Part shown: one piece after another, positions 12,040-20,895 of the stretch
Position numbering within the stretch: position 1 is the first letter of the stretch
Layout of the letters: the number at the start of each line of letters is the position of its first letter
DNA from: Mollicutes bacterium
GTDB taxonomy: Bacteria; Bacillota_I; Bacilli_A; Izemoplasmatales; Izemoplasmataceae
Assembly (NCBI GenBank): GCA_003558105.1
Contig: PWMS01000065.1
Coordinates: 1-57,041, forward strand
DNA: 57,041 nucleotides
Reading direction: 5' to 3'
Position numbers and translations under genes: made by a program
The notes under the pieces: generated by a model
What the model was told of the DNA's origin: nothing
What the model saw: the letters and a program-made list of their open reading frames with translations, nothing else
Databases searched by the model: none

Positions 12040-13210
12040 ATTAAAGTATATCGATGACAACATTCAAACTTTAAAAGATGAAGGGGTTTACCGAAAACTC
12101 CCGATCAATTATGGTCCTTGTGATCATGTAATCAACTTAAACGGACGTAAGGTTATTAATCTATCGTCAAATAACTATTTAGGCTTAGCGACCCATCCAA
12201 GGGTGATGGCCGCATCGAAACAAGCAATCGATGACTATGGTGTAGGCGCTGGTAGTGTTCGCACCATTGTTGGTAACCAAGATTTATTAGAAGAACTTGA
12301 GGATTTACTGGCCGAATTTAAACAAGAAGAAGCTGTGATGGCGTTTCAATCTGGTTTAAACTGTAATATCGGAACAATTCAAGCGATTACCGCCAAAGGC
12401 GATTTGATTATCAGCGATGCTTTGAATCACGCATCGATTATTGATGGTGTCCGTCTTTCCAAAGCGGACAAAGCGGTATACAAACACAACGATATGGATG
12501 ATTTAAAACGCATTTTAGAAGCCAAGCGACAAGATTATAATAACGTCTTAATCATTACCGATGGTGTGTTTTCCATGGATGGCGATTTGGCGCCGCTTGA
12601 TGAGATTGTTAAATTGGCAGAAGAATTTAACTGTTTAACTTATGTTGATGATGCTCATGGTTCTGGTGTTTTAGGTCGTGGTGGTCGTGGGACCATCGAT
12701 CACTTTAACCTTCATGGAAAAGTCGATTTCATCATTGGTACCCTATCAAAAGCGATTGGGGTTATTGGTGGGTATGTCGCCACAAAAGCTAATGTTAAAG
12801 ATTGGTTGTTGCATCGCGCTAGACCGCTGCTTTTTTCTACCGCTTTACCACCTGCAGCGACCGCAGCGACCATTGAATCAGTTAAGTTGTTAATGGAAAG
12901 TGAAGAACATACAAATAAACTTTGGGACAACGCGACATTCTTTAAAAAAGCCATGAAAGAATTAGGCTTTGATATCGGTCATAGTCAAACACCGATTACC
13001 CCTGTGATGATTGGGGAAGAAGCCAAAACGATGGCGTTTTCAAAAGCTTTATTGGAAGCCGGTGTTTTTGTCTCAGGTATTGTGTTTCCTACCGTCCCTA
13101 AAGGTAAAGGGCGCCTACGTGTCATGATTTCCGCATCTCATACGAAAGAAGATTTAACACAAGCGATCAACGCATTTGAGAAAGTGGGTAAAACACTGGA
13201 CGTCATTTGA
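12029..13210 (+). CDS. kbl: Glycine C-acetyltransferase (2-amino-3-ketobutyrate CoA ligase)
   Basis: A 393-residue PLP enzyme of the alpha-oxoamine synthase family, cleaving 2-amino-3-ketobutyrate with CoA to glycine and acetyl-CoA. It shows SSNNYLGL near the N-terminus, [10 protein letters not shown], and [13 protein letters not shown] with the Schiff-base lysine. Together with Tdh it forms the complete two-step threonine-to-glycine route. The ATG at 12029 sits six bases after GAGGAGG and overlaps the tdh end by 11 bases. An ATG at 12023 is possible but abuts the ribosome site. TGA is its stop, evidence for the standard code. Confidence 0.92.
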
Positions 13211-13227
13211 CGACCGGTGTTTTCTTC

Positions 13228-14166
13228 ATGAGAAAATTTATTGGGTTTGCCATATTGGTGTTTTTCACGCTTGTGTTGTTTATTTCTTCTTTAATCAATC
13301 TATGGCATATACATTACGCATTCTTTTTAGCTTTTTTACTGATTGTTGCGTTTGCAGGGTACCGAATCTTTGCCCATTATCAAGAGGTTTTAGATATTAG
13401 CAAAAGCTATGGTTTTACATCGAAACCTGCGCTTTACGATTTTTTAGCGACGTTTTTTGGTGCGGTTATTACCTTTGTTTTAAGCGTATATCTAGGTTTA
13501 GGTGCGGTATTGGCTTCAGGCATCATCGGGATGCTAGCGGCCTTGTTTTTAAAACCGTATGCCGTGCCGATTTTTTGTGGTTCCTTCCTCGGGATGTCAT
13601 CGCCTGAATTATTAGAGCCTTTAGTATTTATCCTCGCAGCTTTGATTGCAGGTGGCATCTTTGTGTTAAGCAAAGATGTTTTCAATGGTTTTGGTGGAAA
13701 ACTTGGGACCATCTCCTTATCCAGTGTTTTGGTTACCTCGTTTATTTTAAGCCAGACATATTTAGAAGCGCCCATCTTTGATGACTTTGAAATGGTATTA
13801 ATCGTTTTCTTTGCGATGATTGGGGCACTACTAACGTTTATTTTAAATATTCGTTTCCAACAAGGTCCGGTTTTGGCCTCAGGGTTTGTCGGTCTTATTT
13901 TTGGGGCCTTACTACCTGTTTTCTTTCCCGAGATTGGTGTCACCTTAGCGATTGTCGCTTTTGGCGCCTCATTTGTTGGTATGAGTAATACCAAACGGAT
14001 GCATGAAGAGTCTTTAATCATTTTTGCTGGTTTGTTGTTTGGTTTAATCTACATTTTCAGTGCGCCTTATTTCGGTGGGGCCGGCGGCAAGCTTGGAACC
14101 ATTGCCTTTGCTAGTGTATTATCAGTTTCTGGCCTTAGAATGGGTTTAAGAAAGATTATAACATAA
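13228..14166 (+). CDS. Polytopic membrane protein with internal duplication, unknown function
   Basis: About 312 residues, almost entirely hydrophobic with roughly ten membrane segments. The second half repeats the first: GAVLASGIIG...FCGSFLGMSS...GFGGKLGTISLSSVL against GPVLASGFVG...FGASFVGMSN...GAGGKLGTIAFASVL. Such inverted or parallel repeats are typical of transporters, but I do not recognise the family. It follows kbl directly and precedes the second HTH-TPR gene, so the operon is tdh-kbl-this gene-regulator. Transport of threonine, glycine or a related metabolite is only a guess from context. A TTG at 13207 overlapping the kbl stop is an alternative start, and neither start has a strong Shine-Dalgarno. 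Confidence 0.7.
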   Translation: MRKFIGFAILVFFTLVLFISSLINLWHIHYAFFLAFLLIVAFAGYRIFAHYQEVLDISKSYGFTSKPALYDFLATFFGAVITFVLSVYLGLGAVLASGIIGMLAALFLKPYAVPIFCGSFLGMSSPELLEPLVFILAALIAGGIFVLSKDVFNGFGGKLGTISLSSVLVTSFILSQTYLEAPIFDDFEMVLIVFFAMIGALLTFILNIRFQQGPVLASGFVGLIFGALLPVFFPEIGVTLAIVAFGASFVGMSNTKRMHEESLIIFAGLLFGLIYIFSAPYFGGAGGKLGTIAFASVLSVSGLRMGLRKIIT

Positions 14167-16152: not shown

Positions 16153-16190
16153 TATGGTTTGTCTTGCAAATTAATATAGGAGGGCCTTTG

Positions 16191-17450
16191 ATGAAAAACG
16201 TCTCTACTCACGCTAAAATCATCGGTGCAAAGGTATTTTTAACCCGTCAACATCAAGAGATCTCTTTGCGCGGTTTAGCAAAAAAAACCGGCTTTTCTTA
16301 CAGTTATTTAAACCGGATTGAAAAAGGCAAGACTGTCGCTAAAGCTGAAACCCTTGTTAACGTTTTAAAAGCACTAGGTAGCCCAATGAAAGAAAACAAA
16401 ACTTGGGATACATGGTTGATTGAAGATTATTTACCTAAGGTCTATAGCTGTATTTATTTTAGTCAATACAATAAAGCCAGAAAGATGTATCATGAATTAC
16501 GTCCTTATCATGACTATTTTATAAGTAGCTTTTATTTTATCGATTATTATTTGGTTATGTGTTCGATGATTGTTATGACCCATATCGCATATGAAAAGAC
16601 GGATCATTATCTAAAGACATGTCAACTCCTAGAACCGTTTATGACAGATGAACAAAAAGAGATATTTATTTTAAATCAGGCTCATCATTATATGTTTAAC
16701 AAAGCATTCACGGTGGCACAAAACTATCTTAAACCCAAACTGAAAAGCTTTAAAAACCAACAGATTCAAGCCAGAGCGTATTACCTTATAGCTGTTAGTC
16801 TAACCAATAATTATACACAATACAATCAAGCGATGCTTTACTATCAAAAAGCGAAAGATATCTTTGATGCGCACATGAATTTTGATCGTTCACATCGAAC
16901 CAAAACCATGCAACTGCGGCTTTTTGCATACTTACAACAACAAGACAAATTTAACGAAACCCTAGCGGATGTCAGTGAATATGCCATCAGCAACAAAGCG
17001 GAGAATATGTACAGTTTAATTCAAGTGCACCTTGCCCTATCGCATATAATGCATGAGCGCTATCAAGACGCCATTGATGTTTTATCGCTATTTACCATGG
17101 ATGAAGGGGCGTATTACTTTTTAAAAGCTTATGCCTATATGCGTTTGAATCGAAGCATGGAAGCTATGGACATTATTCAAAAAGTCAAACAATGTTCCGC
17201 AATTTTCTCCTACAACCTTGAAGCGATAGGTTTTCGTATCTTTGAGCGACTTTTGCTGAGGAAAGTAAATAAAACAACACTTAACGATTTAAAAAATTAT
17301 TGTGATCAAGCGCATCAAGAAAAAGATTTATTGATGGTTCAAATAGCCACAACCCTGTATGTGGAAAAACTTAAAGCTAAACGGGCATACAAAGAAGCTT
17401 ATAACTATAAAGAAAAATATCTTCGCGTTTTATTTGCGATTGTACATTAA
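16191..17450 (+). CDS. HTH-TPR transcriptional regulator (RRNPP-like), copy 3
   Basis: A 419-residue protein. The N-terminal XRE HTH ([20 protein letters not shown], then [19 protein letters not shown]) is a textbook example, and the remainder reads as TPR-like helices with repeated tyrosines (for example [20 protein letters not shown]). The ATG follows AGGAGGG. An in-frame TTG 27 bases upstream lies before the ribosome site and is unlikely. It heads a run with yjbQ and the M48 peptidase gene at 11- and 20-base spacing. A palindrome at its promoter suggests autoregulation. Confidence 0.78.
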
Positions 17451-17461
17451 AGGGGGATTTC

Positions 17462-17884
17462 ATGAAACATTATCGAAAAGCGTTATACTTTAACACTAAG
17501 ACCAGACGGGCATTTATTAACATCACAGATGCGGTTGAAGAAGCGATTGTAGAAAGCAAGATTCAAGAAGGCTTGGTTTTAATCAATGCGATGCATATTA
17601 CCGCTAGTGTGTTTATCAATGACCACGAACATGGATTACATGCAGATTTCGAAGAATTCTTGGAACGAATGGCACCCGAAAAACCACATGATCAATACAA
17701 GCACAATACCGGAACACTGGAAGATAACGGCGATGCACATATCAAACGAGAAATTTTGGGCCGAGAAGTTGTTGTTGCCATCAGTGATGGTCAACTCGAT
17801 TTTGGACCTTGGGAACAAATTTTCTACGGTGAGTTTGACGGCATGCGTAAAAAGCGCGTTCTAATTAAAATTATCGGTATGTAA
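17462..17884 (+). CDS. YjbQ family protein (UPF0047)
   Basis: A 140-residue member of the YjbQ/UPF0047 family, whose E. coli member has weak thiamine-phosphate synthase activity in vitro and whose true role is uncertain. Family blocks are [13 protein letters not shown], the acidic/His segment [20 protein letters not shown] (conserved metal-binding His) and the C-terminal [18 protein letters not shown] lies six bases before the ATG. It lies between the third HTH-TPR gene and the M48 peptidase gene in the same direction. Confidence 0.88.
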
Positions 17885-17904
17885 ACATTGGGGAAGTGAA
17901 CTTC

Positions 17905-18954
17905 ATGTATCTAATCGTTCTTTTTAGCATCATCGGCATGCTCATCTTACTAGATAGTACGGTGGATGCTTTAAATCTCAACATCGAACGGTATCCCTAT
18001 CGCCATAAAACCATCGCTCGGATGGTAATTAGAGGCGTGTTTTATTTGCTTGCCTTTTTGTGGCTTTTTTGGGATGTGACCAATATCTATATGCAGATTG
18101 CACCCACAGTGATACTCTTGCTTTTGGCTTTTATGGCTACTGTATATGGCGATAAAGCATTTAATCTTAAACGCATCTTATTTACCTTAAAACAAACATC
18201 CCAACAAATCCTTCTATGGGGAATCGCGCTTTTCACCATGGTTTTTTTCTATTTCATCATGAATCCAATATTGTTGGTACTGTTGCTTTGGGTATTTATC
18301 GTAGGATTTTATGTTTTATTTCCTAAAATCGCGGCAACTATCTTAAAAAAGAAGTTCAGATTGGTTCCGTATCGCCACCATATGGATGCCGCGCTTTTTG
18401 AGTCGCTGGGATTATCAAAAAAGGTATATATGGTTGATGCTAAAAAAATATCAATCGGCTTAAATGCCATGGTATTGGGCTTAGGGACAAAAGCGCATCT
18501 ACTCATGAGTCGCCGCTTGCTTGCCACGATGACATCCGCTTCTACAGAAGGTGTAATCGCCCATGAACTCGGACATATCCAAAAAAAGCATTTATATAAG
18601 AGAGTTACTGCTGTATTAATAGGGCTTCACATATTGCTTATAGCCAATATTTTCGTGACTCAGTATTTTTTCGACCAAGCCATGCTTGTCGAACATATAG
18701 TAAGTCTTGGTTTTATGAATTTCATTTTCATTAGATTGGCGCAATTTGTCATCATTCGCCAGATGCACAAACACGAATTTGAAGCCGATCATGTAGCCAA
18801 AAAACTCGGTTATGGTCTAACTTTAAGAGATGCCCTAAAAAAATTAAAGACTTTCACCGATGATGATTTTTTTCACAGTCTTTATGCAAAATGGTATCGA
18901 ACCCATCCACCAATTAAACAAAGGATGGCGGTTTTAAAACAAGAGAATTTATGA
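17905..18954 (+). CDS. M48 family membrane zinc metallopeptidase
   Basis: A 349-residue integral membrane protease of the Ste24/HtpX (M48) family. It has several membrane helices in the first 150 residues, the zinc motif HELGHIQKKH, two further hydrophobic segments and the third ligand region HEFEADHVAKKLG, then the C-terminal HPPIKQRMAVL block typical of M48. Such enzymes remove damaged or misfolded membrane proteins. The ATG eight bases after GGGGAAG is chosen over an upstream GTG inside the ribosome site. It is the last gene of the HTH-TPR/yjbQ run. Confidence 0.88.
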   Translation: MYLIVLFSIIGMLILLDSTVDALNLNIERYPYRHKTIARMVIRGVFYLLAFLWLFWDVTNIYMQIAPTVILLLLAFMATVYGDKAFNLKRILFTLKQTSQQILLWGIALFTMVFFYFIMNPILLVLLLWVFIVGFYVLFPKIAATILKKKFRLVPYRHHMDAALFESLGLSKKVYMVDAKKISIGLNAMVLGLGTKAHLLMSRRLLATMTSASTEGVIAHELGHIQKKHLYKRVTAVLIGLHILLIANIFVTQYFFDQAMLVEHIVSLGFMNFIFIRLAQFVIIRQMHKHEFEADHVAKKLGYGLTLRDALKKLKTFTDDDFFHSLYAKWYRTHPPIKQRMAVLKQENL

Positions 18955-18971
18955 GGGATATAGATTTTAAC

Positions 18972-18999
18972 TTGTCATTTTTAAAATCATTTGTATAAT
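18972..18999 (+). promoter_or_regulatory. Promoter of the HTH fusion gene
   Basis: TTGTCA, 16 bases, TATAAT, ending 34 bases before the TTG start. Confidence 0.65.
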
Positions 19000-19033
19000 T
19001 AAGGTAGGATGTGAAGTTAGGGGAGGGGATATC

Positions 19034-19852
19034 TTGTACAAAAAAATTCAGAAATTTACACATGCTTTTGTTTCTCCAATTGTCGTGATTGGGGCTAACC
19101 CCCATGCGGAATCGTTGGTGAAAACAAAAGCTTTATTTACAGCATTAGATCAAACATCATTTTTGCTTAGCCCATTTGAAAAAAAAGACCATCTTCAAAT
19201 GTTGCGCCAAGGTGAAAAAATTAGTATTTCCATGTTGAATCAAGAAGATCTTAATGCGGTTCAAAACGACACGTTTACAAAAAGTGCCAAAGTTGAAGAA
19301 AATTTTCACATCCCTTATCACGATGGTTTTTCCAATGTAGCTTTTTTTGAAGTTACCGATGTAGCCATACTCCAAAACCAAAAGGTCTTTGGTCTCAGGC
19401 TTTTAGATTTTTATCTAAGAGAAAACGTGGGGCCCATTCAAGAGGCGTTTGGACTACTAGAAGACGACGAAGCTTACTACACCATCGCTTGGCACCAAAA
19501 GAAAAGCAAACGGCCGATTAAAAATGAACCGTATCACTTTAATTTTAAGTATAAGATCTGTCGTCTTAAACAACAGGGCTGGTCATATTTAGAGCTTGCG
19601 GATGCGTTTAATGTATACCATGAAACCATTAAAGATTGGTATATCATGTATCAAGTGTTTGGAAGGCATGGTCTTACAAAGAAAAAAGCGAAAGAGCTTT
19701 CTATCTCTAAATTCAGCAAAACCGAGAAAAAAGCCTTGGCACAAGACGTCATTGATCAACGTCGGTCTTATCGTCAAATTATGAAAGAAGAAGGCGTATC
19801 ATTATCGCGTCTTCGAAGTTGGGTTAAGAAAACAAGACGCCAACAAATGTAA
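19034..19852 (+). CDS. Possible flavin-reductase-like domain fused to transposase-type double HTH
   Basis: A 272-residue two-part protein. Residues 1-150 look like a flavin-reductase-type split barrel (SPIVVIGAN near the start, then GEKISISMLNQEDL as in 'FxVNxL' family blocks); this assignment is by eye and modest. Residues about 172-215 (LKQQGWSYLELADAFNVYHE, TIKDWY, GRHGL) and 226-268 (SYRQIMKEEGVSLSRLRSWV) are two consecutive HTH units like those of the IS3/IS150 OrfA transposase subunit. No OrfB or inverted repeats are present, so it is not an active insertion sequence. A flavin- or redox-responsive DNA-binding protein is inference. It starts with TTG after AGGGGAGGGG. The BASS-type transporter follows. 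Confidence 0.6.
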   Translation: MYKKIQKFTHAFVSPIVVIGANPHAESLVKTKALFTALDQTSFLLSPFEKKDHLQMLRQGEKISISMLNQEDLNAVQNDTFTKSAKVEENFHIPYHDGFSNVAFFEVTDVAILQNQKVFGLRLLDFYLRENVGPIQEAFGLLEDDEAYYTIAWHQKKSKRPIKNEPYHFNFKYKICRLKQQGWSYLELADAFNVYHETIKDWYIMYQVFGRHGLTKKKAKELSISKFSKTEKKALAQDVIDQRRSYRQIMKEEGVSLSRLRSWVKKTRRQQM

Positions 19853-19891
19853 GATGTTCGAACACAAACTTTAAGAGCATAATAGTTGCTA

Positions 19892-19938
19892 AAACGCCTT
19901 CAGCCACTTAAAATCTATAATGGCTGGAGGCGTTTTTT
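19892..19938 (+). promoter_or_regulatory. Terminator-like hairpin enclosing the transporter's ribosome binding site
   Basis: AAACGCCTTCAGCCA (19892-19906) pairs with TGGCTGGAGGCGTTT (19921-19935) over 15 bp, with six T ending right at the ATG of the next gene. The right arm contains GGAGG, the only ribosome site for that gene. The structure could stop transcription from the upstream gene and also block translation. Confidence 0.7.
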
Positions 19939-20895
19939 ATGTTCAAAACATTGCGATGGATTAAGCGAAATCTTGTTTTAAGTATTCTGATTAGCATGAC
20001 TATAGGGTTTTTAATCGGTCTTTTTATCGATACATCATTTTTAAGAAGTGGCGTGAGCTTTTTGACGTTTTTTATGGTCTATCCTATGATGGTTACCTTG
20101 AATTATGGTTCGTTACTAGAAAAAGGCAATCTGCGTTTGCAGTTGATTACACAACTGGTCAACTTTATTTATCTTCCGATTTTAGCTTACCTTTTTGGTA
20201 TTGTATTTTTTCCTGATGAGATTTATTTACGTTTAGCCATTTTACTCATTGCCTTACTACCAACCTCTGGTATGACTGTATCGTGGACCGTTATGGCTAA
20301 TGGCAATGTAAAAGAAGCGATTCGAATGATTGTAGTTGGTCTTTTCTTGGGCGGGCTGCTCAGTCCTTTTTACATTTCATTTTTTCTAGGAACGAGCATC
20401 GCTTTGCCTTTAGGGGATATCATTGTTCAAATTATTTTGGTCATTTTCATTCCAATGTTACTTGGCTTTATGACGCAAATGGTTTTAAAAAAACGCTACG
20501 GCGAAACGGTTTTTGTAAAATCGATCAAGCCGAAATTCCCACTTTTCTCAACGTTTTTTGTAGTCGTATTAATCGCCTTGGTCATGTCTTTAAGAGCGAG
20601 AATGCTATTTGAACATCCATTGATTTTGGCCCGTATTTTAGTACCGGTTGTTTTAGGGTATTTGGTTATGATTGTCTCACTCCATATTTTAGGCCGTTGG
20701 CTTTTTAATGATAGCGACCGCATCGCTTTTGTCAATGGAACGATGGTTCGCAGCTTATCGTTAGCTTTGGCGATTGCGCTTTCGGTCTTTTCTGATTTAG
20801 GTCCCGAAATTGCTTTGGTCATCGCAATGGCTTACATTGTTCAAGTACAACTGGCCGCATGGTATACGAAATTCAATCTTTCTTTATCGACATAA
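19939..20895 (+). CDS. BASS/ACR3-type membrane transporter
   Basis: A 318-residue protein with nine to ten membrane helices, related to the bile-acid:sodium symporter/arsenite efflux (ACR3) superfamily. Indicators are the length, ALLPTSGMTVSWTVMANGNV (helix-breaking substrate region seen in ACR3/BASS) and the second conserved crossing near LFNDSDRIAFVNGTMVRSLS. The substrate is not determinable: an organic anion or arsenite are both possible, and the metal-resistance genes at 33438-35802 are not adjacent. Translation starts at the ATG immediately after the hairpin that contains its Shine-Dalgarno, so expression is probably conditional. Confidence 0.72.
   Translation: MFKTLRWIKRNLVLSILISMTIGFLIGLFIDTSFLRSGVSFLTFFMVYPMMVTLNYGSLLEKGNLRLQLITQLVNFIYLPILAYLFGIVFFPDEIYLRLAILLIALLPTSGMTVSWTVMANGNVKEAIRMIVVGLFLGGLLSPFYISFFLGTSIALPLGDIIVQIILVIFIPMLLGFMTQMVLKKRYGETVFVKSIKPKFPLFSTFFVVVLIALVMSLRARMLFEHPLILARILVPVVLGYLVMIVSLHILGRWLFNDSDRIAFVNGTMVRSLSLALAIALSVFSDLGPEIALVIAMAYIVQVQLAAWYTKFNLSLST

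Follow-up and report, generated by a model that had tools for sequence, protein, structure and literature searches.

Flavoredoxin-type split barrels are normally FMN-binding homodimers, and the known flavoredoxins are stand-alone proteins. We know of no transcription factor that has a flavoredoxin for its sensor, and a literature search of incomplete coverage found no described flavoredoxin-HTH regulator. Tandem helix-turn-helix (HTH) units are present in OrfA of IS3-type insertion sequences and its kin (HTH_Tnp_1, HTH_28; IS3, IS630, IS481). Bacterial regulators derived from captured transposase DNA-binding modules are little documented in the literature searched. In primates, SETMAR joins a SET methylase to the Hsmar1 transposase. 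In Acinetobacter baumannii, the reductase HpaC (C1; 5zyr, 5zc2) carries a flavin-reductase barrel followed by a domain of HTH fold, and its MarR domain regulates the enzyme, showing that an HTH joined to such a reductase need not bind DNA (PMC10816480).

Here, we describe a gene from a Mollicutes bacterium that encodes a flavoredoxin-type barrel and a transposase-type double HTH in one chain. It lies in the window, which is the whole stretch of 57,041 nt that was analysed. The fusion is probably a domesticated one-component transcription regulator made from these two parts.

Architecture of the fusion protein

The features of the locus are as follows.

16164..17450, + strand: c0, XRE-HTH regulator, with a conserved place in the locus
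17462..17884, + strand: c3, which we take to be YjbQ/UPF0047-like; position conserved
17896..18954, + strand: c2, M48-type membrane peptidase, directly 5' of the fusion gene in 16/16 genomes
18972..18999, + strand: promoter-like sequence TTGTCA-16-TATAAT, 5' of the fusion gene
19020..19028, + strand: ribosome-binding-site-like sequence GGGGAGGGG ahead of the TTG start
19034..19852, + strand: fusion gene (split-barrel domain and double HTH), TTG start, 272 aa, intact ORF
19034..19483, + strand: residues 1-150, predicted diverged flavoredoxin/flavin-reductase split barrel (AlphaFold2 and VIA-align; PF01613 matches of orthologues)
19532..19699, + strand: residues 167-222, HTH unit 1 (Pfam HTH_23/HTH_28; predicted helices 167-180, 185-192, 196-214)
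19718..19846, + strand: residues 229-271, HTH unit 2 (Pfam HTH_28/HTH_Tnp_1; predicted helices 229-240, 246-253, 257-271)
19939..20895, + strand: c5, SBF/ACR3-like transporter, directly 3' of the fusion gene in 12/16 genomes

An earlier note on this DNA had proposed a fusion at 19034-19852, and it proved to be real: the reading frame is intact on the + strand and recurs with the same two-domain order in 16 genomes. Since this order is found at the same locus in all of them, the fusion goes beyond chance. All 16 orthologues have a -10-like hexamer a short way 5' of their start. The combination of a sensor-type and a DNA-binding-type domain is recognised by sequence in 11 members, whereas the sensor of the window copy is recognised by fold only.

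In 11 of the 16 fusions, the N-terminal ~190 residues are unmistakably of the flavoredoxin/flavin-reductase type and match the Pfam family Flavin_Reduct (PF01613; gathering score 27 bits; best 7e-16), the matches in orthologues being located at residues ~12-141. Members of the clade with an intact flavoredoxin domain, hereafter the intact clade, all score above the gathering value among the matches listed. Searched against the PDB, the N-domain profile of this clade matches flavoredoxins from nearly one end of these proteins to the other (3bnk, 1.1e-26; 2d5m, 6e-19). The window copy gives no PF01613 match up to an E-value of 10, and is therefore classified as derived from the Flavin_Reduct family and not as a member of it. 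Pfam recognises only the C-terminal part of the window protein, and its barrel is invisible by sequence.

For structure prediction, the window protein and two homologues were given to AlphaFold2. In the window model the N-domain is β-rich with moderate confidence (pLDDT mostly 50-77) and the C-domain is helical and confident. Foldseek and VIA-align place residues ~3-144 of the model in the flavin-reductase split-barrel family, with a VIA-align Z-score of 12.4 over 132 residues at 3.2 Å for the FMN oxidoreductase-like structure 3e4v, and of 10.6 for flavoredoxin 2d5m. The assignment of the N-terminal half to a flavin-binding-type split barrel, made beforehand from the letters of the DNA, is thus borne out at the level of predicted fold for residues 1-150. 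The opposite outcome, that this part adopts no barrel, had been named as grounds for abandoning the idea, and a barrel is what the models predict.

In the C-terminal ~105 residues of the window protein, Pfam finds HTH_28 (4.7e-7, in two stretches), HTH_23 (2.9e-6) and, below the cut-off, HTH_Tnp_1 (2.2e-4). HTH_Tnp_1 and HTH_28 are matched by all 16 homologues, which share a transposase-type double HTH of ~107 residues. The motif V-Y-x-E-T-x-x-D-W-Y in unit 1 and the motif V-S-L-S-R in unit 2 are invariant throughout (16/16). Indeed, the strongest constraint in the fusion falls on HTH residues, with 28 invariant columns and nearly invariant recognition-helix segments. When the C-domain was modelled alone, two HTH units were obtained with a pLDDT of 87. 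Fold matches of this model are weak (Z ≤7.3) and comprise HTHs of paired-domain proteins, Tc3, SETMAR, IstA and TnpE, with 7s03 as the top Foldseek match; this likeness fits a transposase origin. Among the sequences of solved structures, no match to the HTH profile was obtained. In a profile comparison, the C-domain can be aligned to an OrfA-like protein from the same genus across both of its HTHs (E-value 4e-8, ~25% identity). The NCBIfam matches of the window copy are all far below the cut-offs (IS630 2.9e-5, as the best; IS481 6.5e-5; IS3 0.0028). Of the earlier description of two HTHs in the order of IS3/IS150 OrfA, the tandem transposase-type pair stands in all 16 proteins; NCBIfam does not settle between IS3 and IS630/IS481 as the source.

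Distribution and inheritance

The fusion is intact in 16 genomes from seven genera (g1, g3, g4, g8, g13, g14 and g16) of one small family, whose members are uncultured, wall-less-type bacteria related to Candidatus Izimaplasma, with one full-length copy per genome. Of the 15 full-length homologues beside the window copy, two come from named public records, one a MAG of Candidatus Izimaplasma and the other of a Mollicutes bacterium. It had been proposed to look for the same fusion elsewhere by profile search, and outside this family none was found in 90 genomes of the order, a class sample of 395 genomes and a phylum sample of 392 genomes. The matches beyond the family are overwhelmingly stand-alone flavoredoxin-like ORFs of ~180-200 codons, in which the N-domain only is covered. 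In the N-domain tree, a single branch (95/100) separates the fusions from the stand-alone flavoredoxins. The viral contigs searched contained no relative, and the plasmids and phages searched yielded flavin-domain matches only, weak and with less than 60% coverage. Mobile spread of the fusion was rejected on these searches.

The gene order c4-c0-c3-c2-fusion-c5 is kept across the seven genera. Distances between C-domains correlate with those between neighbouring genes (r 0.63-0.74), which indicates that the fusion is vertically inherited and not mobile. Four genomes possess the locus without the fusion gene, so that the gene is dispensable. At the copies inspected, no transposase catalytic gene was recognised beside the fusion. 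The sole inverted match bracketing the window copy is a 12-nt, A/T-rich sequence (18959-18970 and 19908-19919), which is unseen in the flanks of the relatives. Insertion-sequence ends were therefore rejected, the flanking matches being short and not conserved, and the earlier statement that catalytic gene and terminal repeats are both missing holds for the window copy.

These data bear on the reading of the gene as a plain transposase remnant, or as an OrfA extended in frame by chance. Pfam and NCBIfam do name transposase families for the HTHs. A remnant is nevertheless hard to reconcile with one conserved chromosomal position in 16 genomes, the missing catalytic partner and a full-length flavoredoxin domain under purifying selection. 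The conserved, non-mobile locus refutes this reading, to which we assign a practically negligible probability; none of the homologues is a plain transposase subunit, the case that the earlier note had feared for all of them.

A genome from another family of the same order (G074, family f3) contains a stand-alone flavoredoxin directly after the gene c19 (L069 4124-5643), with c3 ~3 kb away. Over 232 residues, its c19 shares 37% identity with window positions 13207-14166, ~5 kb upstream of the fusion. The adjacency of c19 and flavoredoxin in another family is a sign of a shared ancestral neighbourhood, and this one genome hints at a stand-alone flavoredoxin as the ancestor of the fusion at the same locus.

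As a separate observation, c0 and c2 (window 16164-18954) share only ~30-40% identity within a genus and diverge faster than c3 and c4, with their position kept; they are possibly a fast-evolving signalling pair. Loss of the fusion was rejected as the driver of this divergence because genomes that retain it show the two genes diverged to the same extent.

Unequal divergence of the two halves and candidate targets

In genus g8, where the barrel is intact, within-genus identities are 69% for the N-domain, 73% for the C-domain, 42% for c0 and 35% for c2. The corresponding values in the window's genus (g1) are ~19%, ~61%, 32% and 31%, with 65% for c5. Since the neighbours diverge to a similar degree in both genera, the barrel alone lost constraint in the window's genus. 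Residues invariant in the intact clade are kept by the window copy at 33 of 39 positions in the C-domain and at 9 of 37 in the N-domain, and the C-terminal DPIIYG..KYY region of the flavin domain is missing. Genus g1 and its sister genus g16 form one diverged clade in the C-domain tree (96/97) as well as in the neighbour tree (92/92), and hence the divergence of the barrel began once. Where dS is unsaturated, both domains are under purifying selection (dN/dS 0.06-0.12). Even the diverged N-domain of the g16 pair gives a dN/dS of 0.12, which argues against free drift and for a domain that still does something.

The pattern of constraint also bears on the main rival reading, an enzyme with an autoregulatory HTH. 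The barrel would then have remained a flavin reductase, and the two HTHs, binding no DNA, would act as a lid or respond to a ligand. A. baumannii HpaC provides a precedent, as a ligand of its C-terminal MarR domain relieves the self-inhibition of the N-terminal flavin reductase (PMC10816480), and the HPAH C1 reductase structures 5zyr and 5zc2 are among the top Foldseek matches to the window model. However, such an enzyme should keep its catalytic domain, and in g1 it is this domain that lost its conserved residues and the HTH that was kept, the reverse of the prediction; the nearly invariant recognition-helix segments likewise speak against it. We consider this reading improbable and continue to prefer a regulator.

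Every fusion, including those of the intact clade, has another residue in place of N29, presumably an FMN contact in flavoredoxin, although the closest stand-alone relatives within the order retain it. The presumed FMN-contact positions are mixed even within the intact clade. Judged from sequence, flavin binding or redox sensing is therefore plausible in the intact clade, though not assured. For the window copy it is unlikely, given the missing PF01613 match, the few invariant residues kept and the loss of the DPIIYG..KYY region.

Candidate targets were sought next to the gene. By eye, no shared site besides promoter hexamers was seen 5' of the fusion gene or in the divergent region between c4 and c0. 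On the other side, the region 19860-19940, named in the earlier note for DNA-binding assays, overlaps a striking palindrome, GTTNGNNNNCNAAC (window 19856-19869), just 5' of the c5 promoter. It is found in 10 of the 12 genomes in which c5 is linked to the fusion, and 500 shuffles per genome gave one equally good palindrome at most. Its position before the TTG-17-TA(t/a)AAT promoter of c5 is constant, and it is mostly followed, 6-7 nt on, by a TGCAT-like sequence. These properties would suit a fusion protein that regulates the adjacent c5, but the palindrome occurs ahead of c5 throughout the family, also in eight genomes that lack the fusion (G011, G031, G042, G025, G033, G027, G013 and G021) and is absent from two with it (G008 and G023). 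GTTNGNNNNCNAAC was accordingly rejected as the operator of the fusion protein and is probably that of another regulator, which leaves regulation of c5 through this site very improbable.

A 16-bp hairpin (window 19891-19936, 94% complementary) ends just before the ATG of c5 and holds GGAGG in its 3' arm; stems of similar appearance are present in L052 and L053. The hairpin may serve in translational control or be a terminator that overlaps the c5 start.

A further candidate is a multi-subunit proline-oxidation operon with 2Fe-2S, FAD, 4Fe-4S, BFD-like, DAO and P5C-dehydrogenase genes, of which c11 encodes L-glutamate gamma-semialdehyde dehydrogenase (above cut-off). In g3, g4, g8, g13 and g14, all with an intact flavoredoxin domain, the operon lies downstream of the fusion; in g1 and g16, whose domain has diverged, it is not among the adjacent genes, as expected of a redox-linked regulator specific to it. 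The divergence in g1 and g16 belongs to a single clade, however, so that the correlation amounts to one event. The operon is moreover present in most members of the family with or without the fusion, and the window genome (G000) carries two copies elsewhere, on contigs C96 and C116, unlinked to the fusion; in G014, c2, c5 and the operon follow one another without the fusion gene. Its promoter, upstream of c7 (L056-L066), shows a conserved TTGTCG..TGTAAGCGCTTTATGA..TATAAT with a cre-like element of its own, TGTAAGCGCTTT, suggesting catabolite control. Regulation of the operon, as suggested by adjacency, was rejected because the operon is common and, in the window genome, lies apart from the fusion; a regulator dedicated to it appears unlikely.

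Proposed origin and comparison with known systems

The domesticated regulator that we favour may have arisen when a complete flavoredoxin-type protein gained the paired HTH of a transposase at its C-terminus, probably once, in an ancestor of the family. As flavoredoxin-type barrels are homodimers, the protein would have two double-HTH arms, which the barrel dimer presumably joins at an operator with inverted repeats. In the intact clade, the geometry of the arms, and thereby transcription, could respond to flavin occupancy or redox state, or else to a different ligand of the pocket. In g1 and g16, where the fold is kept and most conserved residues are gone, the barrel is probably a dimerisation scaffold or the sensor of a different ligand, with the DNA specificity retained. 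DNA binding, dimerisation, ligand and targets are thus what we infer for the fusion protein. The idea of a captured and domesticated transposase DNA-binding module, put forward in the earlier note, stands as far as fusion, conservation and lack of mobility are concerned, and its role as a regulator is part of this inferred scheme. Tentatively, the family could represent a new class of redox one-component regulators, consisting of a whole flavoredoxin and a captured double HTH, in which the window's sub-lineage later dropped the flavin function, re-purposed the barrel and kept the DNA specificity. One bacterial family shows the birth of the fusion, its vertical retention, its absence from four genomes and the later decay of the sensor, which makes the steps of domestication testable.

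Compared with flavoredoxin (PF01613; 3bnk, 2d5m), 11 of the 16 fusions show full-length N-domain homology and the window copy the predicted fold, although in the latter the PF01613 signature is lost, along with most of the conserved residues. The tandem HTHs have the same order as in IS3-type OrfA and its kin, but the fusion is found at a fixed locus without a catalytic partner or insertion-sequence ends. A. baumannii HpaC resembles it in the placement of a flavin-reductase barrel before an HTH-fold domain; there, a single winged MarR domain controls the enzyme, whereas here a transposase-type double HTH has outlived the conserved residues of the barrel. SETMAR is similar in that a host domain was joined to a transposase and the paired HTH kept, and differs in retaining the whole transposase and in having no flavin-type domain. 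The lineage-restricted domain fusion is genuine, and the domestication of a transposase module is probable; the combination is new, while its parts are known.
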